Assembly: GCA_008638375.1 (NCBI GenBank)
Contig: CM018032.1
Span: 56,279,882-56,343,881, forward strand
From: Nyssa sinensis
Lineage: Eukaryota; Streptophyta; Magnoliopsida; Cornales; Nyssaceae
Length of the DNA stretch: 64,000 nucleotides
Reading direction: 5' to 3'
Under the pieces are notes generated by a model. The model was not told the DNA's origin. It worked only from the letters and a program-made list of their open reading frames with translations, and did no database searches. Shown one piece after another: positions 1 through 59,744 of this stretch (position 1 is its first letter; each line of letters opens with the position of its first letter). The translations under genes and the position numbers were made by a program.

Positions 1-2511
1 AGGCCAGTTCGTTGTTACCTTGGACATCTATCAGAATTTCGCTCTTGACGATTAAACCTTGTCTCAATATCTTCAAGATGCATAGAGCAGAAGGTGAGAC
101 ATTCAGCATCAATGTAAGCCTCAGCAATTGACCCTTCCGGTCGTGCTCTGTTACGCACATATTGCTTCAATGTGTGCAAATATCTATTTTGATAATTAAT
201 CAGTTATAGATTAAAATAGTTAGGATGGATAGATAACATAATTCACAAAATTAAATGTACCTTTCTATTGGATACATCCAACGGTATTGGATAGGTCCGC
301 CAATTTTTGCCTCATGAGGCAAATGCATCGCTAAGTGGACCATGATATCGAAGAAAGCTGGAGGAAAAATCTGTTCCAACTTGCAGAGGATCACGACAAC
401 ATCCCTTTCGAGCTTGTCAAGTACTTCCACATTCAATGTCTTCGCACATAATTCTCTAAAGAAGCAACCCAACTTAGTTAATGTAGTCGATATGTCATCA
501 GTGAGATACCCACGTAGTGCAACCGGAAGAAGTCGTTGCAAAAGGACATGGCAATCATGGCTCTTCAATCCGGATATTTTTGCCTCTATAACATTTACAC
601 ACCAAGATATATTCTATGCGTATCCATCTGGGAACTTCACCGATTTAAACCACTCACAAATCCTCATTCTCTCTGCGGATGATAACATATACTATGCAGG
701 AGGCACGATATATTTATCACCGCTACGTATTAGGTACAACTCTTTCCTTATTCCCAGCTCCTGCAAGTCCAACCGGGCTTTAACACTATCTTTTGTCTTC
801 CCTTCAATGTTTATTACAGTTCCCAGCACATTATCACATATGTTTTTCTCGATGTGCATCACATCCAAATTGTGCGTCAACTTAAGGGTCTCTCAGTACG
901 GCAAATCAAAAAATATTCTTTTCTTTGTCCAATTTAAGTCCAAATTAATACGCTTCCTCTTCTTACTACCCGGTATCTTCCCAAACCTCACTGGTTGGAT
1001 GACTGTCAATTGCGCCAGCACGTCTTTGCCAGACAACAATGGTGACAATCTGCAGTCAATTTGTCCATCAAATAGATGCTTCTGCCGATTTCACCAGCCA
1101 TGTGATGGCGGTAGAAAACGACGATGGCACATATAACATATCTTCCTCCCATTTGACAAATGTAGGGAACATGCATCCTTATTGCAAACTGGACATGCCA
1201 GATACCCCTTAGTGCTCCACCCAGACAAGTTCCCGTATGCTGGAAAGTCATTTATGGTCCACAGTAACGTGGCATGCAATTGAAATGTCTCATTCTTAGA
1301 GACGTCGTATGCCTCCACTCCCACCTCCCACCTCCCACCTCCCACAATTCCTTCAACTAGTCCACTAAAGGACGCAAGTACACATCAATTTCATTACCAG
1401 GAGACTTCGGCCCTGGAATAAGCAACGACATGTAGATAAATGGTTCTTTCATACATTTTCATGGTGGCAAGTTATACGGCACAAGCAACACCGGCCACAT
1501 GCTGTAGGCATTACTCATGTCACTGAACGGGTTGAAACCGTCGCTAGCCAGCCCAAGTCGTACATTACGCGGCTCATTTGCAAACCATTCGTGATTTGTA
1601 TCAAACTCAGCCCAAGCTTGTGAATCTGCCGGATGCCTACATGCATTTTTCTCAGCAACACGCTTCTCCTTATGCCACCGCATATCTTCTGCCGTCTTCT
1701 GAGACATGTACAACCTTTGTAGCCTCGGTTATAAGGGAAAATATCTCAGCACCTTGTGCAGAATTGTCTTGTTCTTTCCTTCATTCAGCTTGTACCTGGG
1801 TTCGTGGCACACCGTACACTCTTTACATTGTTCAGTCTCCTTCCAAAATAACATGCAATCGTTTTTACAAGCATGTATGAAAATATACCCGAGGCCCAAA
1901 TCTCTTAATATTCTTTTCGCCTCGTAATATGATTTCGGAAGGGTCTCCCCAGTAGGAAGCATTGCTTTAATCAATTCAATGGTCATATTAACTGATTTGT
2001 TACTACAACGGTTGATGGTCTTAAGATGAAGGAGTTTCACGAGAAAGTCTAGTTTCGAAAACTTATCACAATCCGGGTATAACGGCTGCCTTGCTTCCCT
2101 CAACAATGACTCAAACGCGGTCGATGGTCCCGTGTCACTCCTGTGACTACTCGCCCCAGTTGTAGCCCCCTGCAAGTCTGCTAGCATTTGTGGCAAGCCT
2201 TCGTAACCAACCCCAACATTATCACCAAAGTCATTATCGTCGTCTTCTTCTTCATCATCAAATACCACTCGTACGTCACGGCGTTCCCTGTGAAATTCCC
2301 AACACGTATACCTCTTGTCTATCCCGTGTTCGAGTAGGTGCTCTTTGGCCTCATCTATATGCATATAATCCCTATTATTGCACCTCCTACATGGACATCT
2401 TATCCTATTTCTCCCATCTGCAGATGCATGAGCAAACTCAATAAAATCTTTGATCCCCTTCACATACCCTGGCAAATGCCTGCCCCTTAAGTCCATCCAA
2501 CTATTATCCAT
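1..2511 (-). pseudogene. TNP2-like CACTA transposase, broken and truncated by the window edge
   Basis: Would catalyse excision and integration of CACTA elements. The ATG at 2511 opens MDNSWMDLRGRHLPGYVKG, the N-terminal transposase-associated domain, with a CxC-xx-C cluster near residue 40 (RCPCRRCNNRDYMH) that looks zinc-binding. The TNP2/Transposase_21 core follows over about 1000-2100, and a DUF4218-like segment over about 251-600 ending at QYRWMYPIERY, where an intron begins. Positions 1-190 hold the next exon (complement of the HTLKQYVRNKAR region). In-frame stops include TGA at 1459-1461 after YNLPP, TAG near 1350, TGA near 1095, and TAG at 692-694 after IVPPA. The 1459 and 692 stops also occur in the + strand copy. 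Start choice follows the family N-terminus. Confidence 0.88.
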
Positions 2512-2572
2512 TTTCGTCTACCTAATACAAGTCAAAAATGATACTCGTTATAAATATGAAACATGAATCCTA

Positions 2573-2839
2573 TCACCTCCAACTTCTCTCTAAAGGATAA
2601 GGTGGTCCTATCTCATTCGTGAATGCACAATCTACATTGCAATCAGCAGCAATCAAATGCTTGATTCCACTCGGACAAAATTTTGGCAGCATCTCCCCAC
2701 GGTTCTCCAAGTATACGAGATAGACGTTAGCACGCCTAAATATATACCTAGAGAACAATAGGAGATCGAACTGAAATTTTATCATAGTGAAATATTCAAG
2801 CATATGCGCAATTGATTGCAATGCAGATTTATGCATTCC
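2573..2839 (-). other. Conserved leader segment upstream of the CACTA transposase, possible small ORF
   Basis: This stretch is open on the minus strand, encoding MHKSALQSIAHMLEYFT through PLERSWR, and ends with a stop about 60 bp before the transposase start. The + strand copy has the same open stretch at 51858-52120, with only scattered substitutions. Part of a CACTA leader exon or a small ORF are both possible. No recognised domain was seen. The nested LTR insertion begins at 2845, just upstream of it. Confidence 0.3.
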
Positions 2840-2879
2840 CGAACTGTAACACCCCAAATTACTTAACCGACATGTTTTG

Positions 2880-3641
2880 TGTAATACCCCGACCCGAGGT
2901 AACCAATACCCGACCCGGATTGAACCGGGCCATGACATGTGACCCTGGACTGTAAGTCCATTATTACGTAAATAAGTATCAAATTTACATTTAATTATTA
3001 GATTGTCAAAATATTGGAATAACAATTAAGAGCTAAGAATAATTTTAAAATGGGCAAGCGATACTAAATCGTCCGACGAGATTCGTAATTTGAAAATGGC
3101 CAAAATGATTTGACCCCGAAGATGGAACGAAAAAAAAAAAAAAAAAAGTGTGCGAATAAGTGTACATATGTTAAGTGTAAATTATATATGGATATGTACA
3201 AATAATAATTTTATACTCAATAATATATATTAGACATACATATATAAATATATATACATATATATATATATATATACGGTTGGATATATATATAGATATA
3301 TATATATATAGTATAAATTGAAAGGAAAGAAAAGGAAATAAAATATATATTATGTATGTATAAAATATGAGAGAAACCATGTGCGGCTGCCGCACCTGGT
3401 TTGTGTAAAAAAAAAAAAAAAAAGAAAAAGAAACGTGGACAAGGAAATATGTGGTAGAATTGAAAACCAGTAGAAACAAAATAGATGGCAGCATCCAAAT
3501 TAAACAGGGGGAATGCCACAACCGTAAAGCTGATCATGGAAAAGAATTAAAGAAAAGAGAGTCGATGCTCTGTGGTGTAGTTGATATATTAATATATATA
3601 TAAATATAATGTGTACAGGTGTGTAGCCGTGTGAGGTGCAA

Positions 3642-3678
<37 letters not shown>

Positions 3679-6600
3679 GCATGCATTGTGGCGTGGCAAC
3701 AGGAAAGGAAAGGGAGAAATTGAGAGGGGCAGCAGGTCGGTGGAGCAGTGTACAGGAAGCGTGGCAGCCAAAGGGAAGTGGCAGCATGGAAACAACTGTA
3801 TGAAGTGTAGTGTGTGCATGTATCATATAATATATCTACGTGTATATCAGAATTAAACGGAAACTGTGGGCAGAATTGAATCAATAGGCGTGTTGGGGCA
3901 CTAAAAGAAAGTGAGAGAATGAGTGGAAGATGATGTGTCGAGGGCTGGAGGAGTAATGGCTGCATGACAGCCGTGTATATAGCAGTGTGTGTGGTGTTCT
4001 CCATTGATTAAGCAAAATTTAATAATTTAAAACCAACAACTGAGAAGCAGTGGGTGTGGAGAAGAAATTGGCGTTACAGCCGAAGCTGCTAAAGTAAAGA
4101 GAGTAAAAGAGGGATGGAGTGCAACAACAGGTGGAGGTATATATGTGTAGGCGTTGAATACAATCAGTTTTTGCGGCTGAGGAATTTGATGAAATGAGCA
4201 AGCCAATTCGGTGTTTTCCCAGATCAGTAAAACCGCAGGGAGTTGCACCCATGTTTACTGATGCAAAGAAGAAATTGTGTAGTGGTTTCAGGTTGAACGG
4301 CAGTTGACGGAAGGACAAATTACATGACTACATGCGGCAAAACTAGAGAAAATAGGAGCAGCGGTTGCGGACCGATCTTGATGTACAGAGAGTTGGAAAA
4401 ACTGATTTGCTGCTGTGGAAATTGGAGTAGCAGGTGAGATGGCGTTGAGTTGGAAGAATTGTGGTGAGGAGACGATGGGAAATTTGGTTGTAGGAGACTC
4501 GGGCAGCAGCTGCAACAGGTACGGTGGTGGTGCTGTCTGGTGCGGCAGTGGCCAACTGGAGTGCAGCAGGTGGAGATACAGGAGGAAATTGGGGCAGCTG
4601 TAGCCACGACTGCAGCGGTTAGGGGATGTGTCAACAGATTCAGTGCATTTAAGTGTGCTAAAGTTGGGGTTGCGTCTGAGACCTTATGAGGTATAATTTT
4701 TACTTAAGTAATTTTCTTGCACATTTTAGTTTGGGGGTCAATTGGGTTAGATTTTAGGATGCTGATAAATCTGAACCTGAGATGACTTTAGTTCTGGTTA
4801 CTTAGAGGTTCAGGATTATGATATATATAAAAAAAAATAAAAAAATAAAAAAGAAAAGAAAAAGGGGACCAAGGATAGCTTATTCTAAATTTTTTTTTAT
4901 ATGAGCCAGTGTTGGCTATACTGAATTAGAATATGAAGTTGTGAATTGAAATTTCACCCCAAAACTTATGGGAATTTATAATCAGACCCCCAACAGTTAT
5001 GATTAATATTATTAAGGCCCGAACAGTGAAAGAAATAAAATATTGGTTTAAAGAAAATTACGGAAATACCCCGAGTCCTAAAATAAGTCAAACGAAGTTC
5101 AAACGTGATGAATAAATAGTCAATTTTTATTATCTTGAGCCTTCCGAAACCAATAGTGAAGTCAAAATTATGAAAAGAGGTCCTGGAAATAAAAGACATG
5201 TAAAGTACAAAATGACGATTTTACCCTTTTCAATCCAGAAGTCCAATTTAAGATCCGTAAAAGTCTAAACCACTTTTATTCGACGTTCCGGATATAATGA
5301 TGAGGTATAAATTAGTAAATAAAATACCGATAGCAATGACAGGCATGTTTGAATATATAGCATAGATCAGTTACAACTGTAGACTGAGTTACATTTTCAA
5401 ATGACAGGCACGTCGAAAGGAAAAAGGGGAGGAAACAGTTTGGTTTCCAATGAACAGTAAAGTGTAAGTAAATCTGAACTTTTCTATGTGGTTATTTCCA
5501 GTCAGTCACATTCATTTCTACGTGCTGCCAAATTTGTACTCTATCACTACCTGATGTACTTGATTTGAGCCAATCGACTTGTGGTTATCGGTTATGCCTG
5601 ATCTGTGGATTTGACTTGCTTGCTTACATCGTTGTGAGATTGATCATTGATATTTGAGCATTCTTTGCACTATCATATCATGACCTAGTCTTGAGATATA
5701 TCCTTTTGATAGAAATCTTGATATTCCACACTTCGTGTTTTGTTGATTGTGATATCGATTGCTTTGTACAGTTGTACATCCTGTGTGAAATTTTGTTGGT
5801 CATGATATTTGGTATGTACCTGGGGTTGTGCTCAGTCACAATGGCCCATCCATTCACAGATTGCGTGGGGGAAAGACCCTTTGGGGTCTTGTATGTCCTT
5901 TGGGACTTGTAGAGAAAAGAGCTCTAACGCTTTTCAGAAAGCCCGAGGAACTGTGGCGGATCTGAGCATGCGTTTTAGTGGGGTATGCCGGGCCCCGAGT
6001 GATTCACGCATATCTGGGTTTTTAGAACTCGATGACGATATATCTTTGGTATTCATTGAATGATCATATTCTATGTCCTGTGAATGATCATATTATTGCG
6101 ATCATGTTATACTTTACTCGTTGATGATATATCGTTGATACTCGTTGGATGTTCATATTCTATGCAAGCATGTCATACTTTTGATTGGCTATCGTAATTG
6201 TTGTGGCAGCAGATTTTCATGATTGGCTAGATCCCGGTTGTTGGATTCATTATTATTATCTTCTTGTATCTTATTTGGGATAAGCCTTTTGGACCCTTGG
6301 GTCATTGTTGTACATCTTGGTGATTGGCTATGTATTTCTTGTTACTCATTCGGCTGTTGGATATCTGTTATCCCTTTCTTCTATTATTCTTGTGAACTAA
6401 CCCTGACCCATGGCAAAGCTAGGAATTTACTTACTGAGCTTGTTTAAGCTCATTCCATTTATTTAACATTTTTCAGGTGACATCATGTGGGATGAAATGC
6501 AATGAGATAACTAGTGGAACTAGTGATGCACAATGAACGACAATGACGATATAAACTTCAAGTTAAAGATCGAACGTGAACATTGTAAGGTTAACTTTAA

Positions 6601-7028
6601 GGCTATGCATTATAATGTTACATCATTAGTGATGAGGTTAGCCTAGTATGTCAGATCATTATGATTAAGTGGTACTTGGAGACATTATGATTATTGATCA
6701 TTGGAGATGAGTTTAACTAGCTGAACTTTCATGGTGTGACTTCCGCTTTAAGTAATTCATTGATATAGAATGGTTGCATTAGAGCATGTATATTATACTT
6801 TAGAGATATTTGATGACTGATTCTAGACGTGCTCTGATGTGTTTGGATGAGTTACATTCTTAATTCAAAAAGATTTTAATTCCGCTGTTTTGACCCTACA
6901 TTTAGAATGTAATTCATTGTGAAGTTGCCTTGGGTTGGTTACATTGTTGGTGGAGAAAAAAACTGACAAGGTGGCCAACTGGCATCACGTCCTCGAGATC
7001 CGCGTAGGATGGGTTTCGGGTCGTGACA
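2880..7028 (+). mobile_element. Long non-coding LTR-like element nested in the previous one
   Basis: Starts TGTAATACCCCGACCCG, ends GGGTCGTGACA, and is flanked by the 5-bp direct repeat TTTTG (2875-2879 and 7029-7033). It sits 35 bp inside the host element, whose sequence resumes at 7034. Length is 4149 bp with no recognisable retroviral-type protein domains. It shares its ends, a stem-loop at 6436-6451 and a tail block (about 6399-6580) with the element at 21176-25749. It includes AT microsatellites near 3240-3310 and 3643-3676 and homopurine runs near 3130 and 3410. Solo LTR is the most economical interpretation. Confidence 0.75.
3230..3310. repeat. AT-rich microsatellite tract
   Basis: Imperfect TA-dinucleotide runs inside the nested LTR-like element. 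A second perfect TA run lies at about 3643-3676. Open frames read through these tracts are low-complexity artefacts. Confidence 0.8.
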
Positions 7029-10000
7029 TTTTGTATATGGGAAACTATTTTGGGAATGAAATGTCAGGTTTAGCTAATTTAATGTCTATTTTTAATAGTG
7101 ATAAAACTCGAATTAGCTAATTATGGGAAACTCGAGAAAATAAAAACCGACATTGGACCTTGGTCAATGAAAGATATTCTGAGTAGGAAGTGACAGATAG
7201 AAACCGCGCTGAAAAAGGAGTTACAGATTGAAAGTTAAGGCCAAAACAGTGAAACTGGAATTCCGCGACAACCAAACAGGGCCTTAACCAGAAAAATATG
7301 AGAAAATGGTCACTTGGGAGGCCAAGGGGAATTGAACCCTTGACCTACCAAGGTAAGCAATTTTGTCCCAAAAAGTTACCAACTAGGCTGTTGGTTACTT
7401 TGTGCATGTATACAGCAACATATGTATATAACCTATAATCTTGCTCAAGCCACCACCCAAATTGGCCAATGGCCTTGCATGCATTCCCTTCATCATAGCC
7501 CTCCATCACCTCCATCAGTCAACACCCACTAACCCCACTAAGGGCAGAGATATACTCATATATATGTATATGTGTATAGCCCTCTATGTATATAAACCTA
7601 TAATATATAAATGCCATAACTTGCATCAACTCTCTCTTTAGAGAATTCTGAAATTTCAGAGATTGTGTAAACTGTGTGTGTACGTGGGGTTTGGTAAAAG
7701 TGAGAGTGTCGAGTGAGAAGGAAAGGAAGCTTTGCATGCAAGGGCATTGAGGAAGATTGGCCATTCAAGGTGCAAGGAGAGGGGGGCTTGAAGTTGAAGT
7801 GCATGACCTGAGGGAGTCGAGGGACACTGTGAGAGGTCTGGGTCGAGCCATAACCGAGAGAAAGAGAGAGCACTGTGAAGGTAAAGTTCCAAATTATCTT
7901 CAATTCTTGTTTTGTAAATTTTGGAACTGTTTGATAGAATTAGACTGCATGCATGTTTTATTCTTGATCCTAGGAATTATTCTGAGTGTATATGGCTTAG
8001 AGGTGTCGGATAAGTGCAGAAACCATGGAAACCGAGCTGACCTCCATTAAAGGACCTTGGAATACCAGGTCTGATTCGACCATAGCAGTTTAGGATTTTG
8101 AGTAGTGGGACTCACAATAGACCCTGATAGGATCTCAACCATCTACCTACGCGACCCCAGAACACCGTATAGCCCCATGAAATTGGAAATGAACCCACGG
8201 GTTTAAAATCCAATCCGTTAAAACTCGAGACTAAACTGAAAAATGAAGATAAGGTCTTGATCCTTATGGTCTGTAGGTCACATAGCTTCAAACCACACAC
8301 AAAATGGTTGAGAAATGGGGACGTATTGGTCAGTTGCAGGTCTGGATTATTGTTTTTCAAACAGACCGACCCAGAGGATGATTCGAAGCTTCAAATGAAT
8401 GCCAAATGATAGATACTAAGTGCAGAAAGCTATCGGAATCGAAACCAACTGAAAATCGTGTCTAAAACATCACGAAATAAAGAGTAAAAATCTGCAGAAA
8501 AATAGGGCAACAGTAACCAAGGGGGGTTAGGGACGATGACCAGTACCGAGTCGGGTCGAACCGGGTGTCGGGTCGGACCCCGACCCGATTAAAAATGGAT
8601 GGGCTTTAATGAAACTACGCCGTTTCCTCACTGATTTAAATTAAAATTTAGTTAGGGCTGACGTCATCATGACGTCAGCAGTGTAACCAACCGGTCAGAA
8701 CCGGACTGAACCGGACCGATTCAGTTGCAAAGAGACTGAACCCTTTGGTTCAGTTTTGAATTTTTAAATATTTACAAACTGACCCCCACTGTTTAACAGA
8801 ATTACACTAAGGCCCAAATTTTGAAAATCTTTTGCAATTATACCCCTGAAAAATTAAATAAAATAATAAAATAATTATTTTATTAAAAGAGAATAATTAC
8901 CATATTGCCCTTGGACCTTAAACAAGTCAAACGAAGTCCGAATTTAATAACTGAATAGTGTAATCTTACTATTTCGGGCATTCTGGACTCAATGGCTGAG
9001 TCCGATTTGTGAAACCAAGTCCCGAAAAATACAGACATGTAAAGGGTAAATGACCGTACTGCCCCTAATGACACATAGGGCCAGATTACACTGAAGGATA
9101 GTCCATTGTAACTATGTTGGACATTTCGGACTCAATGGTGAGGTCCCTGACTGCAAATAAAATACCAAAAAATACAACATATGAAATTACCAAAATACCC
9201 CTGACACTGTACAAGGCCCAAATGAAATCCAATTTCAACGAAATTAATATCAGTAGTAGACCTGACACCTGTGAGATTGTATACATGACTAAATGACGAA
9301 TCCGAGACAGAAATTATGTGACGACAAAAATGACCAAAATATCCCTGATATACCCGAACCCAGATTTAAAAACGGAGAGAGTCTAAATTGACTTTCTTCG
9401 ACCTTCCGGACTCAATGGTTGGGTCCATATTATGGAAACCAGAACCGATAAATGTGTGAAAGCATGAAGCTACCAGAAGAGTAATGAGATCTGTTCTAAC
9501 GTGTTGAACTGTGTTCTAGGTAAAATATCACTTAAACTACCATGGACAATCAGGGCAAGAAATTCACCATCATGACTAAGGCCCAGAGGTTAGCCGATGA
9601 GAAACAACAAAGGTTTATGCAAGACTTACTGTGGCAGCAAAAATTTATTGAGCGCCATATTAGAATAGCTAAGTCCACTGAAATTGTCTCCGTCCGGCCC
9701 TTCATATATAAGACACCTACTAAGGCAATGATTGCCGAGGCCAAGATGAAAAAAACAGGAAGATACTGAAACCCTAAGCCAAATGCTTAAGAGGTAAGAC
9801 CTATGAACTAGCCACTATAAGTTAGTTCCATGAAACCCATCCTAGGGTAGACTTACTCAGTCTAAGGTCATGAGTTGATAAATCTTTATAAATTGTTTTA
9901 GGCTTAAGGAGAAAAAGAGGAAGGCTCCGTTCATAGCTTCAAACTCAAATATTGAAGGTGAGTAACTTCTGACACTGTTTAGTTACTGTTCCTTGATCTG

Positions 10001-10732
10001 TTAAATTGTTTCGAATATCATATGTTTTAAATGCAATCGTTTTAAATGCATGCTTTTATCACCGATGACATGGTTCTTAGTTTCTCAAATGATTAACTAT
10101 ACATCTGATTGATATGCTAGCACCCTGAACCGTTTATCTGTTTTGATCTATTGAACTTGACTTGGATTTATTGAACTATTAATTCCAAACTGATTTAGTT
10201 AACAATGTGATTTAAGCAAAGATTGAATTCGAAACTCTTGCCTGGATATCTGTGTTACTCACTAGGCTTTTTAAAGCTCATTCCATTATTTTAATAATTT
10301 CAGGGGAACTCTCAGATGGACAGGTTTAGCAGGTTCAGGACTTAGGGGGAAAATGTTGGAGACCCCCAGATAAAATGATAACCCATTTTTGTGAATCTAT
10401 ACCATTTTTGTACTTTTGTGTAACTAAGCAGATTATGACCTTTTGTGGTAAAACTGTTTTGTAATCTTGATAAGATAAGACTGACTATGATGTATCCTGA
10501 ATGCTCTGCCAAGTATGTATGTATGCATTCTCTTGTGAAAATTTCGCTGCTTAAATTATATATGTCGAATGCATTATGCTTGGAATTTTATATCGGAATG
10601 GCCTGTGGTTAGGATTACCGTCGGGGTTTTGCTTTCAAAAAAAAAAAACTAATAAAACCCGATGGGTACCTAACTGGCCTTGTCACGTGCCCCAAATCCG
10701 CACAGGGTGGGTCTGGGGGATGTGACACGAAC

Positions 10733-13289
10733 TGTCCTCTCTGGACAATTCAAGAATCGATTTTCATACACACGAGCCCAATCGCGAATAAATTTCACGA
10801 CAAGATTCAAATGTGATAAAAATGACTCCCGAACGGGGCTAGGCTTACATGAATGCAATTAAAAAATTCATTAGTGTAAGTGCAAACTCTGATTGTCAGA
10901 CAGAGTTTTGCTTTAAAAAATCATTAACAATAGCATTGAAAATGCAAATAGAAAACATATTGATCTTGGTTGCTAACAAGTAAAAGCACCTAACTTTCAA
11001 TTTTTATCTATTAATTAAGGTCATTCATCAAGAATTATTTACTTGGCACCTGACAACAACAACTTAACCAACAAAAGCAAATCAATTGCTACCTAAAACC
11101 ACTAACTGACTTAATAGGTCTGTTGTATCTAGTTGATCTCTCAATCTATAGGACTCAAGAACTCTTATTACTTGGAAGCTAAAACCAAAAAAAAAAAATT
11201 AAAAATTATTGTTTAGAGGAACTCAGGAGCAAGGGATTAGGGTTCAAGTTGCAGTTCAATGAACACATACATGAAACACAAGAGGGAAAAAAACACAGCC
11301 ATGGAAAAACACATGTTGAATGAACACATACATGAAAAAATGTCCAAATGCACTCATGTGTCTAGATTTCAAGGAATTTCCATCTCAACAAGAAATATAT
11401 ATTCCCATCAAAATTTAATTAAGATAGAACAATCCAACTTAAAGTCAATTTTTAAGTAAAAATAGTTACCTTTACATACTTATATTCGAAACCACCTTAT
11501 TTTGATATGAGACGGCAAACAAACTAGACTTCGGGTTACCTAACTTTTCAATTTTTAAACTAAATTTTTTCATTTAGGCTACATAATTAGATTTTTTACT
11601 ATTTATAATAAGTTTTAAATTTGTAATTATTTTGTTTAAGAAATTTTAAATTGGTTTCCGTTTGTTGTTATGTTTTTCTTATTTCATCTAGTTTTTAATT
11701 TTTTTAAAAGCCCTAACATTTATTTATGCTGAATTTTTTAATTTTTGAGATTTCTTAATTTTTTAATTATATTGAGTCTATCATAAAGAAGTAGTAAATT
11801 CTTATATAGATCCGTAGTTTTTTAGTAGTAAATTCTTATTTAGATTTGTAGTCTTTTAGTTTATAAATATAATGTAATTAGTCTTTATTAACTAATTTAT
11901 TAATAATATTTTAATTTTGATTTTTTTTTTTGGATGAGGAGTTTTTTTGTATTTCTTAGTTATTAAGAAATTAGACCTAATTTGATTTTCCTTTCACATT
12001 TTTGTGTTAACTTAGTTTTGAAGTAGTAGTTGAGAGTAGCATACAATGAGGAGTGGAAATGCATCAAATAGTGAAATCAGATGCTTCAATAGAATCTGAA
12101 TCTCTCAAAATTGGAACTCAAAAGTGATTAATAAAACTAAACAAATGATCAAAAGGAGAAAGTATACTCATCAATGTTTGAACAAATGTGCTGGACAATG
12201 AAATTGACTGATGTCAACACTTCAGGAAATGTTTTTTATGCCTATAAATTTTTTTTATATTCATATGAACTCCCTAAATAAAGAATTTTATTATTTTAAT
12301 GATGGCTTAATAGAAAGTTAGAAGAAACTTCTAGTTTGTTTGGATGAAAAAATTTGATAATAAAAGAAAAGATTAAGGTAGATTAATAATAAAATCTTTC
12401 TTATGGATTTTTATATAAGGAGGAAGAAAGAAAAATATAGAAATATTAAGAGAAAAAAAAAGAGTCATTAGTAATAAAAATTATACCAACAACTTTGAAT
12501 AATTATACCAACAACTTTGAATGATTATACCAACAACTTGAATAATTATTTGCAATCACATTGACTCTTGACTTTATTGGTGAAGGAGTAATAATTTTTG
12601 CTAGAGTGGTTGGCATTTGAATAATTATACCAACAACTTGTACCAACAACCTATTCTTACAAAATTTTAGATACATACAACAGGGAGATAATAAAAAATT
12701 GTTAGCATGCAATAGTACCTAGTTTTTTGTCTGAACATTAAAAAGAAAAAAAAAGAAGGTAGATAGTCATTACATTAAAAAGCACAATTTGGCTGCATAA
12801 CATAAGCCAGATTTAGCATCCATTTGTTTGCATAAAAGAGTAGGACTCATGTTACCTCTTGCAAGTGTTCACACTAACCAATATAAAGAGACGATTACAG
12901 GCACCAAGTTCTTACAACAAAAACCCATACAAATTTGTGTGTGTGAAATAAACAGTAAAATAAGGGAGAAAAAAATGGCCTGAAATAAACAGTAAAAAGA
13001 TCAACCAACAAATCTCTCTTTCACTTTGTCTCTGGTGGTATAAAAAACAAATCTAAACTGAACCACAAAAGAATGATGCAGATTTGATAGATTTTTGCAA
13101 AAATAGAAAGAAAGAATATGAAATCTACCGTCATCGTCACCGAATAGGATTGCCGTCACAGAATGGGCCGTCCAATGAGCCGTCCACCGTCGTCCACCGC
13201 CGTCCAATTCGTGCTCGCAACAAGGGAGTGACAGAGACAGAGAGAGAAAAATTAGTGAGACAGCGTGAGAAGAAAAACAAACTAGGTCG
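10733..13289 (-). other. 5' leader of the minus-strand CACTA element, no supported gene
   Basis: AT-rich DNA between the transposase region and the terminal repeats. Its transposase-proximal part (about 10733-11380) and a block at about 12170-12720 are reverse-complement matches to the + strand CACTA copy. The stretch 11500-12010 is instead similar to 26440-26890, so it looks like a separate dispersed repeat. A short tandem motif, ATTATACCAACAACTT, recurs around 12480-12640. No protein-coding potential was recognised. Confidence 0.6.
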
Positions 13290-13606
13290 GCTGGATATAA
13301 AAATGGGGGGCTCATTCGCGACGCTCACTGAGCGTCACTAATAAGACCCTGAGCGTCGCTAATACTCAAATATCACTATTAGCGACGCCTAATCGAGCGT
13401 CGCCATTAATTTTACCTATTAGCGACGCCCCTGTGCGTCGCCAATAGTCATGTGCGCATCGCTAATAGTTTCGCGCCTAATTTTTCGCAACTTTTTTCCT
13501 ATTATTCTTGACACACGACTGGGCGTCGCGAAAAGTGACTTTTAGCGACGCTTTTCGTGCGTCACTAATAATGAGCGTCGTCAAAAATATTTTTTTTTTT
13601 GTAGTG
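13290..13606 (-). repeat. CACTA subterminal repeats and terminal inverted repeat
   Basis: Many copies of TTAGCGACGC/GCGTCGCTAA-type motifs in both orientations, ending in TTTTTTGTAGTG at 13606, the complement of the CACTA terminus. Subterminal arrays of this kind bind the TNPA-type accessory protein in En/Spm elements (family knowledge). The same motif class occurs at both ends of the + strand copy. Confidence 0.88.
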
Positions 13607-14011
13607 GGTTCAAGTGTTTCATCAGCTTGCATTGGCCCTTCAAGGGCCCTTCCACGTATATATATTCAAGGGCCCTTCCACGATGCATAAAGAGAAACTT
13701 TTAGCGGTTTAAAATCGTTGGGGACAATTGGACTGGTAGTTGATTGTCAATTATGGTGAGAATGAATCATCTTGGACTGTACATGGAATTGGAAGGGTCA
13801 TGTATGTGGTTAGCAAATATGCACGTCAGGCTGTAAAACTAAGCTTAGAGAGAGAGAGCTTCATAATTAGAATGCATAGGAAACGTGTATTTATATAAGT
13901 GAGAGCTTGGAAGGGCCTTTGAATATATATACGTGTAAGTAGTTCGCGTGCTTCATTGAAAAAGCTTAAAGTGGGTGCATAGCTAGTAGCTGTATACCCA
14001 CTTAGACTACT
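13607..14011 (+). promoter_or_regulatory. Promoter and 5' leader of MYB copy 1, bounded upstream by a CACTA terminus
   Basis: The 405 bp between the CACTA end and the MYB start codon contain a TATA-like TTTATATAAG at about 13890-13899, some 112 bp before the ATG, so transcription probably starts near 13920-13930 (inference). A near-perfect inverted repeat, 13654-13679 against 13909-13934 (25 of 26 positions pair), brackets the TATA region. The broken MYB copy 2 also has a TATA-like sequence at about 46683-46692. Any element further upstream now lies inside the transposon. Confidence 0.6.
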
Positions 14012-14149
14012 ATGAAGACTACTCCTTTTGGAGTTAGAAAGGGTGCTTGGACTGAAGAAGAAGACATTCTTCTAAGAAAGTGCATTGGAAAGCACGGAGA
14101 AGGAAAATGGCACCAAGTACCTCTAAAAGCTGGTATATGTAATGTAATT

Positions 14150-14214
<65 letters not shown>

Positions 14215-14389
14215 TGATAATCTTCTTTGATTTTTTTTTTCTGGGTATTTGCAGGCTTGAACAGATGCAGGAAGAGCTGTAGACTGAGGTGGTTGAACTA
14301 TCTGACGCCAAATATAAAAAGAGGAGGCTTTGCATCTGATGAAGTTGATCTCATGATGAGGCTTCATAAACTGTTAGGCAATAGGCAAG

Positions 14390-14435
<46 letters not shown>

Positions 14436-15465
14436 TTATCCTAATTAAAAATTAAAGGTGCCCCATAGAAATTTCAGGAAAAAAATTCTATTAGTGTTGC
14501 TCAACTGTTTGATTACATAAAAATTCTATTATTAAAACATTATTTCAATTTTATTCTAATATATATATATATATATATATAAATTTAATATTGAGATGTT
14601 TACCACTTCCACGCATAAAGAAAGTATATTAATCATAATTATTATTATAATTAGGGCAGATAAATAATTAAGAAAGGTATAATTTAATTGTTTAATCTTC
14701 AAACAATATAAAATTATTTTGGAAATCACTTTGTCTGGAGTCACAAGACCTGTCTTGTTGCGTAACTTTAAAAATATAAAAAATTGTAGTTGCAAATTTG
14801 CTATTTCCTTTTTTTCTCCCCGTCTCTGGGAGGCCACATATGACAAGGTAGTGCTCTCTCCCATCAAGACTCACTGATGTATTTCTCTTTGTGCATCCCA
14901 AATGCTTCTGCAACTGTTTATAGCTTTATTTTTACTCATCTGTTACTTGTTTTGTTTAAACAGATGGTCGCTGATTGCCGGTAGACTCCCGGGGAGAACT
15001 GCAAATGATGTGAAGAACTATTGGAACACCCACCTGCAGAAGAAGACAGTTGCTCGCGGGGAAGAGGTGCAAACCGAAGCCCAGAAGACCATTGAAAACA
15101 AAATCATAAAGCCACGACCTCGGACCTTCTCCAAAAATTTTACTTTGTTGAGGGGAAGAAATAATCTGACTGTAGATAACATTCAATCAGGAGATAGTCT
15201 CTGCACCAAGCCAACTCCAACATCTCCTCTAGATGTTGGTGGAATTCCATGGTGGGATGACTTGCTTGTTGACAAGGAAATTGATAATGGAAAAAGCTGG
15301 TCCATAAGTGGTTTGGAAGAGCAACCCACAACAGGCCTTTGGAATTGCGAAGAAACGACACCCCGAGAAATAGCAGGTAACAGTTCTAGTGTTGATGAAG
15401 AACTCCTGAATGGTTGGAGTGACCTCTCCATTGATGTGGACCTCTGGAATCTTTTAAGTAATTAA
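14012..15465 (+). CDS. R2R3-MYB transcription factor, subgroup 6 (anthocyanin-activator type)
   Basis: Three exons: 14012-14132, 14255-14384 and 14964-15465 (121 + 130 + 502 nt), joining to 250 residues plus stop. R2 covers about residues 10-61 with Trp 13, 33 and 53. R3 covers about 63-110 with Phe66, Trp85 and Trp104. The bHLH-interaction signature [DE]Lx2[RK]x3Lx6Lx3R is complete from D72 to R91. ANDV (97-100) and KPRPRTF (133-139) mark subgroup 6, the AtPAP1/VvMYBA type that works with bHLH and WD40 partners in the nucleus to switch on late anthocyanin genes (family knowledge). The acidic C-terminus ends [10 protein letters not shown]. Exon junctions fall inside the G41 and R84 codons, the usual R2R3 positions. 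Intron 1 is GT-AG; intron 2 has the donor AG/GCAAGT, a GC-AG intron. Length is normal for the subgroup and no disabling change was seen. The pigment role is inferred from motifs. Confidence 0.93.
14151..14211. repeat. (TG)n(GA)n compound microsatellite in MYB intron 1
   Basis: About 12 TG units followed by about 19 GA units, inside the 122-bp first intron of MYB copy 1. It is a likely length polymorphism and marker for this gene. Confidence 0.95.
14385..14963 (+). other. Intron 2 of MYB copy 1 (GC-AG type)
   Basis: A 579-bp AT-rich intron with TA runs near 14396-14430 and 14561-14582. The donor reads AG/GCAAGT and the acceptor TTTAAACAG/ATGG. Only this junction joins R3 in frame ([10 protein letters not shown]), so the GC donor is required by the protein. 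A canonical GT donor with the same frame was not seen nearby. Confidence 0.85.
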
Positions 15466-34958: not shown

Positions 34959-34960
34959 GT

Positions 34961-34982
34961 TTGGCGCCGTCTGTGGGAACGA
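34961..34982 (+). other. Primer-binding site
   Basis: TGGCGCCGTCTGTGGGAAC begins 3 bp after the 5' LTR and has the form of a sequence complementary to a tRNA 3' end (TGG complements CCA). The tRNA identity was not determined. Confidence 0.8.
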
Positions 34983-38990: not shown

Positions 38991-39026
38991 CTTCAAGACA
39001 AAGCACAACTCATCAAAACATCGGGA

Positions 39027-39515: not shown

Positions 39516-39528
39516 AATCCTCTAGTAC

Positions 39529-46816: not shown

Positions 46817-46888
46817 ATGGGCACGAAAAGCTTGCCAAATGTGAGAAAAGGTGCATGGACTGAAGCAGAAGATGTCCTTTTAAGGAAA
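46817..46888 (+). pseudogene. MYB copy 2, truncated exon 1
   Basis: Encodes [20 protein letters not shown] then LLRK, the start of an R2 repeat closely matching residues 8-23 of MYB copy 1 ([16 protein letters not shown]). Similarity stops abruptly at 46888 where unrelated AT-rich DNA begins, so the rest of R2 is gone. Exon 2 was searched for by eye in 46889-47880 and 60120-62284 and was not found. The third exon lies 15.4 kb downstream past the CACTA insertion. Confidence 0.85.
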
Positions 46889-47880: not shown

Positions 47881-48225
47881 CACTACAAAAAATTAGAGTT
47901 TTTGCGGCGCACGATATTTGCGACGCCCACCAAGCGTCGCTAAAAGGGCCCTTTTGCGACACACAAAGCGTGTGTCGCTAAAAAAGGCAACAAAATGGTT
48001 TCCCACGCAAAAAAAATTGGCGGTAACCTATTGGTGACACACATTCACACATTAGCGACGCCTCTGTTCGTCGCTAATAATCAAAACCTTTAGCAACGTT
48101 CATTCGAGCGTCGCGAATAGTAGTGAATAAGGAACGCTGTCGTTTCAATGGAACATTAGCGACGGGCATTGACTTATTAGCGACGCTCATTTGGGCATCG
48201 CTAATAAGTCTTATAAAACTTCGCG
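47881..48225 (+). repeat. CACTA 5' terminal and subterminal repeats
   Basis: Terminal CACTACAAAAAA, then many GCGACGC/GCGTCGC motifs in both orientations. Related to 13290-13606 and 59745-60119. Confidence 0.9.
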
Positions 48226-48235
48226 TCGCCCCCTG

Positions 48236-48237
<2 letters not shown>

Positions 48238-48278
<41 letters not shown>
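48238..48278. repeat. (CT)n microsatellite
   Basis: About 20 CT units just inside the 5' subterminal region. A shorter CT tract follows at about 48306-48320. Confidence 0.95.
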
Positions 48279-48281
<3 letters not shown>

Positions 48282-48911
48282 CTTGCTCTGTGTTTTTGAT
48301 CGACTATCTCTCTCTCTCTCGGTCTCTTTGCTTTTGATCCATTGGAGGCTATCTCTTGCATCAAACACATCGATTGACAAGGGGCAAAACATCAAAATTG
48401 TGCTGTCTCTCAAGTAAGTATGCCTTGTCTTTGGATTTAGATTCCCTTATTTGGTTTGACGATTTCGGATTGTTACCTTCTTCTATTATTTTTTTGTGTA
48501 CCAGTGGATGATTATCTTTGTAACCTTATATCTGAATGCATGCTTGTTTGTTTAATATGTTGAAATCTGAACACTGTTGTTAATCTTCTAGCATGTTACA
48601 ATTCTTTTCTAAACTTTATATAAAGGCGTATTTTCTGCTAAAGTTGAAATTTAGAACTTTAAATTATTAGTTAGTTTGTCTGTGTCTTTGGTTTTATGCT
48701 GGTTTATTTATTCTGTGTCTTTGGCTTCTCTAAAAAAATTTTTTCCAATTTTTGGAGTTAGGAAAGCTTCATAATGAAACTTTTATAATGGAGTAGGGAA
48801 CTCCTTCTCTAATCCCTGTACAGTGAAAAAAAAAATGTTCACTAAACCATTTCTTTTACAAAATAATAAACATAAGAAAGTAGGTGACCATGAAACCTTC
48901 ATATATTTATA

Positions 48912-48952
<41 letters not shown>

Positions 48953-51857
48953 TAAGTAACAGATATAAGTTAGTGAGGGTTACTCTCCGAGTATGAAAAT
49001 AACCAATTTCAAACCTTTGATAAAATTACAACTTATCTATCGACATTTTATCATTGCATGTAAAAAAGTTATCCAAATCTTATTGAGCTAAAAAAAAAAT
49101 TAAGTTAATCAAAGATTTATAGCTGTCTCATCAGGATCACATTTAAATTAATATTTTTAATATTTAATTAATAAAAATGTGAGTTCGTGAATCTAACACT
49201 AATTTATAATATGTACTGATATTTGACGTGCATGACAAGCACTGCAAAAAGGTCCAATCCAACCATTAGATTTATAACATACAATATCTATTTTTTGTAA
49301 GAATAAAAAATATCAACCTTGAAAATATGTGAATATTTTATTTTAATATTAAATTTTGTATAATTGTGTAGAAATTCTTTCCAAAATAAATATCTTATAA
49401 TAACTCTCAAAAAATAAAAATAAAAATTGGGATTGTCCATTGATTCGTCATGGTACTGTCACTGACCACCAAGCAATGGGACAGGAATTTAGTGGTGTAA
49501 TGTTGAAGATGTCAAGTGTGACATGAAGACATTGAGAGCACTAAGGGGGAAATTAATATAACCCTTTTGTTTTTAGCCAAGAGCTCATAACACGATAAAT
49601 TATTATTGTATCAATCAGTCACGCAATGTGACAATTTCTATGATTTTAATATTTTGAAGAAATATACATAAAACCTACTGTAATATTTTGCCAAGGGCTC
49701 GTGAAAAAAACTTTGACTTCTAATGGAATTATAATTTATCATATTCTTTTTACGTAGATTCATTATAACATGTTAACGAGGTGGAATCTCATTTTAAAAA
49801 CATGTGTCTATCTCATTATTATGTTCAATTAGGATTCTATCTTCTTCTCTTTAGTGTAAATTTGATAATTGTATTGAATGGGTGAAAGATTTCTAAGGAA
49901 ATTCTTTTGTTTAGGAGACTTTTTTATTTCATTAATTAAAGCGGAGAAAGATTTCTAAGGGAATTCTTTTGTTAAAGACATTTTTTTATTTTATTAATTA
50001 AATTAAAACATTCTTGTTTTTATAAGGGTATTTTTGTCAACATTAGAAAGTATAAAATAAAAATCATCCATACTTTTATAGATAGTGTTCTAAATGCAGT
50101 TATGGAGGGTTGGAGAGAGGAATTTAGCACGCATTTCATAAGTTGTTGGTATAATTATTCAAAGTTGTTGGTATAAGTTTTATTACTAATGACTCTTTCT
50201 TTGTCTCTTAATATTTCTATATTTTTCTTTCTTCCTCCTTATATAAAAATCTATAAGAAAGATTTTATTATTAATCTACCTTAATCTTTTCTTTTATTAT
50301 CAAATTTTTTCATCCAAACAAACTAGAAGTTTCTTCTAACTTTCTATTAAGCCATCATTAAAATAATAAAATTCTTTATTTTTTTTCAATTATACCAAAT
50401 TTATCCCATTATTTATATGAAATGAATAAAATCTTAAATATTTCTCAAATATTTTGACAAATTTCAAACTATTTCCAAAAATCCTAACCACCACAAATAA
50501 GTTTTTTTTTTTATTTATGAAATTCTTAATTTATTGCAAATAATTATAAAATAAAACCTCTTTCTTTTAACTTATTTAACTACATAAATTTTCTTATTTA
50601 AAAATTTATCTTGAATATTTTTTAGTTATTAATAATAATTTCCCAAACAACTCTCAAATTTTAAATTGTTATTCAATGATGTATAATTTCGAAATGATAA
50701 ATTTGTCACTAGCTCTTCTATGGACTTCCAAGTATTGTTTTCATGAATGCTTTTGATCTTGTGATTCTCTCTTAGGTAATGCCAATTTAGAAGAAAAAAA
50801 TGTACAATGTCATAATAACTATAATCATAAACTTGTCTTCGATATCTCGTTAATGTTTTCCACCTTGGTCTTTTTTTTTTAATTAGTAAAAAAAAATATT
50901 ATTAATATAACCAACAATGTACAAGATATACAAAATAATTACATCAGCAAAGGTTCGGTACACAAGTATCATTGCTTACCAGTCTCGTTTCAATAAATTA
51001 TATAACACCTAAAATTGGTTGAAATTTGAATACCAAATCCACAACTCCTTCACCACTCCACTTGTCTTTGCCCACAAAATTACCTTTACCATAATCCTTT
51101 CAAGGACCTCCTCCCATCTTTGCTGAATTGACTCAAAAATTATCATATTTGTTTTATTTTAAATATGACATATGTTAAATATCTTGCTTTAGTGTTTTGT
51201 AGGATTTTAGTCAAAAAATTCCTTGAAATCTAGACACATGAGTGCATTTGGACCTTTTTTTATGTATGTGTTCATTCAACATGTATTTTTCCATGGCTGT
51301 GTTTTTTTCCCTCTTGTGTTTCATGTGTTCATTGAACTGCAACTTGAACCCTAATCCCTTGCTCCTAAGTTCCTCTAAACACTAATTTTTTTTTTTGTTT
51401 TGACTGCCAAGTAATAAGAGTTCTTGAGTCCTATTGATTGAGAGATCAACTAGATACACCTGAGCTATTAACTCAGTTAGTGGTTTTAGGTAGCAATTGA
51501 TTTACTTTTGTTGGTTAAGTTGTTGTTGTCAGGTGCAAAGTAAATAATTCTTGATGAATGACCTTAATTAATAGATAAAAATTAAAAGCTAGGTGTTTTT
51601 ACTTGTTATCAATCAAGATCAATATGTTTTGTATTGCCATTTTGAATGCTATTGTTAATGTTTTTTAAAGCAAAACTCTGTCTGACAATCGGAGTTTGCC
51701 CTTACACTAATGAATTTTTTAATTGCATTCATATAAGCCTAGCCCCATTCGGGAGTCATTTTCATTACATGTGAATCTTGTCGCGAAATTTATTCGCGAT
51801 TGGGCTCGAGTGTATGAAAATCGATTCTTGAATTGTCCAGAGAGGACAGTTCGGGAA
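48279..51857 (+). other. AT-rich leader of the + strand CACTA element
   Basis: Probable untranslated leader and introns of the transposase transcript; AAGTAAGTATG near 48413 looks like a 5' splice site. Contains an AT/AC microsatellite at about 48910-48952. Blocks 50100-50400 and 51230-51850 match the reverse complement of 12170-12720 and 10733-11380, with dissimilar DNA between. No protein recognised. Confidence 0.5.
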
Positions 51858-52120
51858 TGCATAAATCTGCATTGCAATCAATAGTGCATATGCTTGAATA
51901 TTTCACTATGATAAAATTTCAACACGGTCTCCTATTGTTCTCTGGGTATATATTTAGGCGTGTTAACGTCTATCTCGTATACTTGGAGAACCCTGGGGAG
52001 ATGCTGCCGAAATTTTGTCCCAGTAGAATCAAGCATTTGATTGCTGCTGATTGCAATGTAAATTGTGCATTCACGAATGGGATAGGACCACCTTACCCTT
52101 TAGAGAGAAGTTGGAGGTGA
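51858..52120 (+). other. Conserved leader ORF upstream of the + strand TNP2 pseudogene
   Basis: Open stretch MHKSALQSIVHMLEYFT to PLERSWR, stop, 66 bp before the transposase ATG. It is the counterpart of the minus-strand stretch 2573-2839 in the other CACTA copy. Function unknown. Confidence 0.3.
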
Positions 52121-52185
52121 TAGGATTCATGTTTCATATTTATAACGAGTATCATTTTTGACTTGTATTAGCTAGGTAGGTGAAA

Positions 52186-55100
52186 ATGGATAAGAGTTAG
52201 ATAGACTTGAGGGGCAGGCATTTGCCAGGGTATGTGAAGGGGATCAAAGATTTTATTGAGTTTGCTCGTGCATCTGCAAATGGGAGAAATAGGATAAGAT
52301 GTCCATGTAGGAGGTGCAATAATAGAGATTATATGCATATAGATGAGGTCAAAGAGCACCTACTCGAACACGGGATGGACAAGAGGTATACGTGTTGGGA
52401 ATTTCACGGGGAACGTCGTGACGTACGAGTGGTATTTGATAATGAAGAAGAAGACGACGATGATGACTTTGGTGATAATGTTGGGGTTGGTTACGAAGGC
52501 TTGCCACAAATGCTGGCAGACTTGCAAGGGGCTACAACTAGGGCGAGTAGTCACAGGAGTGACACGGGACCATCAACCATGTTTGAGTCGTTGTTGAGGG
52601 AAGCAAGGCAGCCGTTATACCCGGGTTGTGATAAGTTTTTGAAACTGGACTTTCTCGTGAAACTCCTTCATCTTAAGACCATCAACCATTGGAGTAACAA
52701 ATCAGTTACTATGGCCACTAAATTGATTAAAGCATCACTTCCTACTGGGGAGACCCTTCCGAAATCATATTATGAGGCGAAAAGAATATTAAGAGATTTG
52801 GGCCTCGGGTATATTCCCATACATGCTTGCAAAAATGATTGCATGTTATTTTGGAAGGAGACTGAACAATGTAAGAAGTGTACGGTGTGCCACGAACCTA
52901 AGTACAAGCTGAATGAAGGAAAGAGCAAGACAATTTCGCACAAGGTACTGAAATATTTTTCCTTAAAATCGAGGCTACAAAGGTTGTACATGTCTCAGAA
53001 GACGGCAGAAGATATGCGGTGGCATAAGGAGAAGCGTGTTGCTGAGGAAAATGTATGTAGGCATCCGACAGATTCACAAGCTTGGGCTGAGTTTGATACA
53101 AATCACGAATGGTTTGCAAATAAACCGCGTAATGTACGACTTGGGCTGGCTAGTGACGGTTTCAACCCGTTCAGTGACATAAGTAATGCCTATAGCAAGT
53201 GGTTGGTGTTGCTTGTGCCGTATAACTTGCCACCGTGAAAATGTATGAAAGAATCCTTTATCTACATGTCGTTGCTTATTCCAAGGCCGAAGTCTCCTGG
53301 TAATGAAATTGATGTGTACTTGTAGTGGATGAGTTGAAGAAATTGTGGGAGGTGGGAGTGGAAGCATACGACGTCTCTAAGAACGAGACATTTCAATTGC
53401 ATGCCGCATTACTGTGGACCATTAATGACTTTCCAGCATACGGGAACCTGTCTGGGTGGAGTACTAAGGGGTATCTGGCATGTCCAGTTTGCAATAAGGA
53501 TGCATGTTCCCTACATTTGTCAAATAGGAGGAAGATATGTTACATGTGCCATCGTCGTTTTCTACCGCCATCACATGGTTGGCGAAATCGGTAGAAGCAT
53601 TTGTTTGATGGACAAATTAAGCGCAGATTGTCACCTCCATTGTTGTCTGGCAAAGACGTGTTTGCGCAATTAGCAGTCATCCAACGAGTGAGGTTTGGGA
53701 AGATACCAGGTAGTAAGAAGAGGAAACGTACTGATGTGGACTTAAATTGGACGAAGAAGAGCATATTTTTTGATTTGCCGTACTGGGAGACCCTTAAGTT
53801 AAGGCACAATTTGGATGTGATGCACATCGAGAAAAACATATGTGATAATGTGCTGGAAACTGTAATGAACATTGAAGGGAAGACAAAAGATAGTGTTAAA
53901 TCCCGGTTAGACTTAGAGGAGTTGGGAATAAGGAAAGAGCTGCACCTAATATGTAGCGGTGATAAATATATCGTGCCTCCTGCATAGTATACGTTATCAT
54001 CCGCAGAGAGAATGAGGATTTGCGAGTGGTTTAAATCGGTGAAGTTCCCAGATGGATACGCATCGAATATATCTCGGTGTGTAAATGTTATAAATGGGAA
54101 AATATCCAGATTGAAGAGCCATGACTACCATGTCCTTTTACAAAGACTTCTTCCGGTTACACTACGTGGGTATCTCACCGATGACATATCGACTACATTA
54201 ACTGAGTTGGGTTGCTTCTTTAGAGAATTATATGCGAAGACTTTGAATGTGAAAGTACTTGACAAGCTCGAAAGGGATGTTGTCGTGATCCTTTGCAAGT
54301 TGGAACAGATTTTTCCTCTAGCTTTCTTTGATATCATGGTCCACTTAGAGGTGCATTTGCCTCATGAGGCAAAAATTCGCGGACCTGTCCAATACCGTTG
54401 GATGTATCTAATAGAAAAGTACATTTAATTTTGTGAATTGTGTTATCTATCCATCCTAACTATTTTAATCTATAACTAATTAATTATCAAAACAGATATT
54501 TGCACACATTGAAGCAATATGTGCGTAACAAAGCACGACCGGAAAGGTTAATTGCTGAGGCTTACATTGATGCTGAATGTCTCACCTTCTGCTCTATGCA
54601 TCTTGAAGATATTGAGACAAGGTTTAATCGTTAAGAGCAAAATTCTGATAGATGTCTAGGGCAATAATGAACTGGCCTTGTGATGTTTAATCAGATTGTG
54701 CGGCCAATAGAAGCCCGTATATATGAATGGTGTCATCCTCAAGACTTGGAAAGAGCCCACTACACCATGCTCAACAACTGTGAGGAGACATTGCCATATT
54801 TTAAGTAAGTTTATCGAAATCATTGCAATACTACGTTAGTATATAAATGTATATTTTTATATAACATATCTCATCTTATGCAGTGAGCATACGATCGAGC
54901 TTCAGAGAGAACATGTATTAAGTTCTAATCTGGAGCAAAGACAGAAAAATTTGTTTCCAAAGTGATTCGAAGAACTTGTAAAAATAGGTTTCAATTAATT
55001 GTAATTGTATTAGTTAATGCATTTGTATTCAATTAATTTTTTACTTGTACTGAATTAATAGATGAAACTATTACGCCACCAACAATCTCTTAAGGCGTAC

Positions 55101-55865: not shown

Positions 55866-55981
55866 TTGTAATAGGTGTTACATGTGGTAAGATCAAGTGT
55901 AATGGATATTCAATTTTATGATGTAATGGATTTTAATTTTTATGATGTAATGGATTTTACTTTTAAACTTTCTTTTTAGAT

Positions 55982-57428: not shown

Positions 57429-57496
57429 CGTGACTCTTCACAACCTTGGTAAGTTTTAAAAATTATATACTTTGGTGGATTTATTATTTATAGAAA

Positions 57497-59309: not shown

Positions 59310-59744
59310 CTTATGCTACTTTATGTCGTTCTTACTATTTATCCATGCAAAAAAAAAAAACTATTCACATTCTATATTCATATATATTTAATAATTGTTC
59401 TAATATATGTCATTTGATCTTTATTTCAGATTGATCGGGAATTATTGCTGCGCCGTCTTTATGTTTTGCATCGGAACTTGTTATTTTTATTTTTTTATTT
59501 CCATGGACATCTGTAGTAACATTTTGGAGACAATTTTTAATTTTTCTATTTATTGATGAATTGTACTTTTATAATTGTACATAATTAGTTTAATATATAT
59601 ATATATATGAATGTATTTTTCTTTTTTAATATATTCATTTCAGAATGCTTGGATTTTATTGTATATCAGGATGGATGATTGATACTGGTTTAAACAGGAA
59701 CAAAACAACAAATAAAATGAAGTAGATATGGTTCAAAAAAAAAA
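59310..59744 (+). other. AT-rich 3' part of the CACTA element
   Basis: No gene seen. Contains a TA run near 59596-59608. Probably 3' UTR and spacer before the subterminal repeats. Confidence 0.5.

Follow-up and report, generated by a model that had tools for sequence, protein, structure and literature searches.

Insertions near subgroup-6 MYB genes go with changes of colour in other plants. The preliminary description of the present locus assumed as much, and it finds support in radish (PMC7210773) and strawberry (PMC9485867), as far as the available parts of these accounts go. In radish, the CACTA element found at position -154 of RsMYB1 carries methylation, white flesh in mutants of a red-fleshed line is associated with a methylated promoter, and the element was carried by 21 of the 21 red-fleshed accessions tested (PMC7210773). 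In strawberry, a CACTA-like element, FaEnSpm-2, lies in the promoter of the anthocyanin gene FaMYB10-2 and goes with higher expression in red-fleshed lines (PMC9485867). The locus described here, around the gene that we call MYB1 in Chinese tupelo, resembles both. As in radish, a 13-bp CACTACAAGAAAA end lies in the promoter of an anthocyanin MYB gene, at -405 rather than -154. The radish account, in the part available, mentions no flanking deletion (PMC7210773), whereas the short distance at MYB1 is best read as a deletion with filler. Radish methylation and expression were moreover measured and 111 accessions genotyped (PMC7210773).

A further parallel is offered by maize p1, a MYB gene outside subgroup 6 that controls phlobaphenes. 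The duplicated MYB genes p1 and p2 resemble the tupelo genes in that transposons, and end joining that left filler taken from neighbouring sequence, have remodelled their regulatory or coding regions, although a Mu-like element rather than a CACTA one is involved in the enhancer case (PMC3014980, PMC2686159). In rice, excisions of DNA transposons are accompanied by flanking deletions (one of 2,479 bp, one-sided) and by filler beside the sites, much as here, except that the element has gone from the rice site and is still present in tupelo (PMC4423477). The soybean element Tgmt*, of 20.5 kb, is a CACTA element in the pigment gene F3'H with 13-bp ends, a 3-bp duplication and subterminal repeats. 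In these respects it is like the tupelo element, but its site is an intron of a pathway gene and it is proposed to be autonomous, whereas the tupelo element is interrupted (PMC2613891). Judged by titles and the openings of abstracts, none of the literature found was about the MYB locus of Nyssa sinensis, which is too little to establish absence from print.

The data come from a single assembly of Nyssa sinensis (Chinese tupelo), described in the available part of the assembly paper as an ornamental tree whose leaves colour spectacularly in autumn (PMC6877568). The window is a stretch of 64,000 nucleotides, and its coordinates are used throughout: values of zero or less lie to its left, and adding 56279881 to a value gives the position on contig C2. 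The features are collected in Table 1. Searches for MYB genes covered 290,881 bases (5,000 of them N, a run at 140501-145500 in the right flank). One paralogue, MYB-A, straddles the left edge of this region, and its first exons were found in a further 10 kb.

Table 1 Features of the MYB1 locus and of its paralogues, in window coordinates
Feature	Position	Strand	Remarks
CACTA element 1, part inside window	1..13606	-	whole element -7503 to 13606, 21,110 bp, C2:56272378-56293487
DUF4218 ORF in element 1	251-613	-	domain match
Transpos_assoc ORF in element 1	1729-2517	-	domain match
Nested insertion within element 1	2845..10727	.	7.9 kb, TG...CA ends, 5-bp duplication CGAAC, junction read by eye
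Terminal 300 bp of element 1, GCGACGC-type subterminal repeats	13307..13606	-	30 CpG, observed/expected 1.97
Target-site duplication GGT, right copy	13607..13609	+	occurs once in MYB-B
Distal flank remnant, the sole one left	13607..13633	+	25/27 bp match MYB-B -80067..-80041, GGT included
Putative deletion scar	13634..13681	+	43-48 bp filler; TTCAAGGGCCCTTCCACG twice; ends in CCACG
Templated part of filler	13653..13679	+	26/27 bp equal the reverse complement of 13909-13935
Native proximal promoter with 5' leader, retained in MYB1	13677..14011	+	335 bp
TATA-like box TATATAA	13892..13898	+	285 bp from element 1
MYB1, intact subgroup-6 R2R3-MYB	14012..15465	+	exons 14012-14132, 14255-14384, 14964-15465; 250 aa
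MYB2 exon 1, first part	46817..46887	+	broken neighbour of MYB1; pieces matched from 46826 in the search for MYB genes
CACTA element 2	47881..60119	+	family of element 1, opposite orientation, duplication ATT (by eye), inside larger MYB2 exon 1 insert
MYB2 exon 1, second part	60487..60527	+	
MYB2 exon 3	62283..62762	+	in-frame stops in R3 repeat and glutamine run
MYB-A	begins -119076		133 kb upstream of MYB1; open for 257 aa, intact; older paralogue
MYB-B	begins -77207		91 kb upstream of MYB1; frameshift in exon 3, reading ends after 181 aa
MYB-C	-66504		exons 1 and 2 matched

The reading frame of MYB1 is open across its three exons. Intron 2 (14385-14963) is of the GC-AG type (GCAAGT...CAG), and as MYB-A and MYB-B have the same GC donor, this donor is ancestral to all three. 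The protein contains two MYB repeats (PF00249 in two stretches, E 1.1e-31), and the best match among solved structures is WER (6kks_A). Read by eye, it also has a bHLH-binding signature, an ANDV box and the sequence KPRPRTF; the signature, the ANDV box and the motif KPRPR[S/T]F are what we take to be the markers of subgroup 6. The 120 relatives listed of 7813 matches include Vaccinium MYBA1 and MYBA2, Actinidia MYB110, Camellia anthocyanin 1 and Petunia An2. From its repeats, motifs and named relatives, MYB1 is classed as a subgroup-6 (anthocyanin) R2R3-MYB. None of the 120 listed matches (of 7813) is identical to it, and MYB1 may therefore be absent from the deposited annotation. Over the 246 codons compared since the duplication described below, the MYB1 lineage has acquired 3 synonymous and 4 non-synonymous changes, and MYB-B 1 and 5; these counts do not decide on selection on MYB1.

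Upstream of MYB1 lies the end of a CACTA (En/Spm) element, element 1. At 13606, on the minus strand, it reads CACTACAAAAAAA and matches the pattern CACTACAANAAAA without mismatch. A scan of the window for this pattern, allowing up to 2 mismatches, gave 31 matches against 15.6 expected (none of 100 shuffles reached 31), and pattern matches would not by themselves prove an element end. The end at 13606 is proven because a partner end, CACTACAACAAAA, is found outside the window at -7503, because GGT lies beside both ends as a 3-bp target-site duplication, and because the site is uninterrupted in a paralogue. Both termini are of the CACTACAA type, CACTACAACAAAA and CACTACAAAAAAA being alike at 12 of 13 bp. 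It is worth adding that across the genome CACTACAAGAAAA occurs 543 times per strand, and the reversed pattern 43 and 53 times; CACTA-type ends are thus common in Nyssa sinensis.

The transposase-type ORFs of element 1 are on the minus strand, and 13606 is therefore its 5' end, facing MYB1, with its genes running away. Domain scanning of four ORFs, a subset of those in the element, gave one Transpos_assoc match, one DUF4218 match and no Transposase_21 match. An in-frame stop at 1729-1731 breaks the transposase frame, which is open in the related element 2, where a 345-aa ORF matches both Transposase_21 and Transpos_assoc. The stretch 1-2847 is 93% identical to element 2, and the nested insertion is a later event, since element 2 keeps uninterrupted sequence there. 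GCGACGC, counted on either strand, occurs 8 times in the 300 bp of the 5' end and 5 times in the 300 bp of the 3' end, and is absent from the MYB1 promoter. A tandem array of a 160/161-bp unit is found within the family (57445-59352 and -6727 to -2825) and is about twice as long in element 1. More relatives of the family lie near MYB-A and MYB-B, at -110002 to -102450 and -92000 to -86717.

Five MYB loci were found in the region searched: MYB-A, MYB-B, MYB-C, MYB1 and MYB2. The statement in the preliminary description that MYB1 is the only intact MYB gene here stands for the window and fails for the neighbourhood, where MYB-A is intact. A further copy on the same contig, P0001 (F0562_004154), was not found in the stretches searched around the window; copies outside these stretches are uncounted, and at least this one exists. 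On the alignments, MYB-B with MYB-C and MYB1 with MYB2 are two copies of one tandemly duplicated two-MYB segment, spanning -85502 to -66171 and -19994 to 60527. Within them, -85502 to -81202 aligns with -19994 to -15732 at 89.9%, -77543 to -75663 with 13677 to 15625 at 91.8%, and -66789 to -66458 with 46552 to 46887 at 96.4%; the flank blocks are 76-91% identical. MYB1 and MYB-B differ by 2.8-4.2% substitutions in the promoter, intron 2 and exon 3, against 9.1% in the left flank. This unevenness may reflect gene conversion between the copies, which would possibly blur the history. Two stretches of the upstream flank of the window copy, -15732 to -14743 and -13856 to -7776, are missing from MYB-B; a CACTA-type terminus, TTTTTGTAGTG at -14747, forms the end of the former, and no matching left end was seen there.

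The neighbour of MYB1 has fared worse. Exon 1 of MYB2 is split by a 13.6-kb insert (46888-60486) containing element 2, a tblastn search for exon 2 gave no match at E up to 1, and MYB2 is evidently destroyed. Between the two genes lies an LTR retrotransposon (34333-46551) with gag and reverse transcriptase domains and a duplication ATGTG, whose site is uninterrupted in MYB-C. Between its LTRs 29 of 622 sites are different, corresponding to about 1.9-3.4 million years at assumed rates, and a 61-bp tandem array lies inside it near 40660-41874.

The comparison with MYB-B carries the main result. The left flank of element 1 aligns to MYB-B exactly up to the boundary (-7504, corresponding to -80065), and MYB-B reads straight on with TCAAGTGTTTCTTCAGCTTGCGTT, which corresponds to the right flank and has a single GGT. 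By this alignment MYB-B is the site as it was before insertion. The insertion is therefore younger than the duplication, unless MYB-B lost the element without trace; a precise excision from MYB-B would likewise look like an empty site. The uninterrupted site lies 2,857 bp (2.86 kb) from the ATG in MYB-B, against 405 bp in the window copy. After its 27 bp of distal flank, the window copy resumes its match to MYB-B at 13677 (-77543), and the approximately 2.5 kb between site and gene are missing from it, replaced by the 43-48 bp filler; a blastn search with MYB-B -80040 to -77537 gave no match in -20000 to 73000 at E up to 1e-3. MYB-A shows which state is the older. It aligns with MYB-B as far as -77748, some 200 bp past the breakpoint (alignment score 180, against 28 for the best of 200 letter shuffles), and with the window copy only from 13677. 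Because MYB-A shares these roughly 200 bp with MYB-B, it is the window copy that lost the sequence, and its state is derived.

The filler itself is informative. Compared with inverted promoters, its 27-bp block matches at 26 positions in MYB1, 25 in MYB-B and 21 in MYB-A, and at no more than 18 elsewhere in about 300 kb. The CCACG at the right join is also present at the breakpoint in MYB-A and MYB-B. The structure fits a templated end-joining scar: a deletion, filler of local origin, and microhomology where the ends meet. As a side effect, 13653-13679 and 13909-13935 form a 27-bp inverted repeat around the MYB1 TATA region, created by the filler, at which RNA initiated within the CACTA end could fold.

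This changes the reading of the promoter. The preliminary description was right that a CACTA end lies 405 bp upstream of an intact anthocyanin-type MYB gene (end 13606, ATG 14012), and close in putting about 300 bp between the terminus and the TATA-like box. It further proposed that the element inserted directly at this point, and that the terminus at 13606 defines the upstream boundary of the gene, and here we part from it. The distance in the assembly is indeed 405 bp, but the uninterrupted site in MYB-B lies 2.86 kb from the ATG, and a deletion of 2.5 kb and a filler with an inverted promoter copy stand between element and promoter; simple insertion at -405 is rejected on the former ground and is highly improbable. 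Contiguous native promoter begins at about 13677-13682, not at 13607, and on this evidence the boundary of the MYB1 promoter is the deletion scar and not the transposon end.

The history that we propose would begin with the tandem segmental duplication giving MYB-B and MYB1. A large CACTA element would then have inserted between TTTCTTAGGT and TCAAG, by comparison 2.86 kb upstream of the ATG as measured in the uninterrupted paralogue. A double-strand break would have followed in the MYB1 copy, most likely linked to the element since one breakpoint is only 27 bp away. It would have been sealed by error-prone, template-copying joining (the pathway is our reading, and the structure comes from the comparison), with the loss of about 2.5 kb and with a filler left behind that is mostly a backwards copy of the proximal MYB1 promoter. 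What is now seen upstream of MYB1 is, in order, native promoter and leader, scar, distal flank, and the CpG-rich 5' end of the element, with its genes facing away. We consider an insertion far out, together with a deletion with filler in the window copy, very probable; this judgement does not extend to the order of the two or to any effect on expression.

Either order of insertion and deletion would fit the sequence. The deletion could have come first and been unrelated, the element happening to land later beside the scar. The target duplication, intact at either end of the element, would suit this order, but a chance landing within 27 bp of the scar is improbable (about 1% for a 5-kb upstream region, on a rough estimate), and we regard this sequence of events as rather unlikely. 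The distance of 27 bp suggests a role of the element in the deletion without proving it. Both events might even belong to a single transposition attempt in which the element was restored: the gap would be refilled from the sister copy, synthesis would run 27 bp into the right flank and switch to the inverted MYB1 promoter, and the break would be sealed 2.5 kb further on. The gap-repair step is here presumed, as a general mechanism applied to the structure of element and scar, and we think this course of events quite improbable. It is scarcely tenable that the window copy is ancestral and that MYB-B gained the 2.5 kb. One segment of it, -79076 to -78519, is a dispersed repeat of which the region examined contains two relatives, as a gain might predict, but MYB-A carries the MYB-B sequence next to the breakpoint and the filler in the window copy is templated; the edge common to MYB-A is the ground for rejecting it. 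An assembly artefact as the main cause is likewise rejected, given that matching GGT copies stand 21 kb from each other and that the site is uninterrupted elsewhere.

The 405 bp at 13607-14011 contain 4 ACGT cores and 2 E-box-type (CANNTG) motifs, which are motifs of a regulatory kind. The lost stretch contains 4 ACGT and 2 CANNTG motifs in MYB-B, and 2 and 2 in MYB-A; since the retained sequence has 4 and 2 as well, a loss of function does not follow from motif counts. The last 405 bp before the ATG, which are not homologous throughout, contain 9 CpG in MYB1, 12 in MYB-B and 13 in MYB-A; with homology only partial, observed/expected ratios are 0.57, 0.84 and 1.04. Of the 5 promoter substitutions assigned to the window lineage, 1 is a CpG loss. 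The CpG traces of methylation of the MYB1 promoter are mixed and weak, and the CpG-rich 300 bp of the CACTA end are a plausible methylation target.

Our reading, tentative and nearly as apt to be right as wrong, is that expression of MYB1 would be reduced or retuned by the loss of distal sequence and by the spreading of transposon chromatin, and that MYB-A could cover for it. As MYB-A is intact, a loss of MYB1 expression need not show; that the rearrangement may affect colour is our inference. It is possible, if somewhat doubtful, that the 335 bp suffice and that element and deletion are without effect on expression or colour. The MYB1 frame is still intact, the transposase frame of element 1 is interrupted, and the proximal promoter (13689-14011) differs from MYB-B at 9 of 320 aligned sites (2.8%), with 4 ACGT cores and 2 E-box-type motifs kept. 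Against this, some 200 bp common to MYB-A and MYB-B have gone, ACGT and E-box-type motifs included, and the CACTA element at -154 is associated, in white-fleshed radish mutants, with a methylated promoter and reduced expression of RsMYB1, according to the available part of that account (PMC7210773). By analogy, the CACTA end might instead supply or expose promoter activity. Here FaEnSpm-2 at FaMYB10-2 (PMC9485867) and the red flesh of radish, as implied by the authors (PMC7210773), are precedents in the parts available, and the 5' end of element 1 stands head to head with MYB1, but the genes of the element run away from MYB1, and we hold such activation to be unlikely. With methylation in radish and higher expression in strawberry, either direction is therefore possible for MYB1.

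As a class, the event is ordinary, a transposon and a rearrangement at a duplicated pigment-type MYB gene, and it is unusually readable thanks to the two paralogues in one genome. CACTA insertions at anthocyanin-MYB promoters are already known, and the corrected history is useful rather than very surprising. One genome offers an internal control here, a MYB region with and without the insertion, and its history can be partly ordered. How far an ATG lies from a transposon end can reflect a deletion scar and not the point of insertion, which changes what primers and reporters should test. If expression differs, a tree known for its autumn colour would provide a test of transposon chromatin against the loss of distal promoter. 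If insertion and deletion were indeed one event, this event would have brought the transposon back, removed the distal promoter and placed MYB1 beside the CACTA 5' end; and if the allele is still polymorphic, it would act as a natural switch of red leaf colour in Chinese tupelo.
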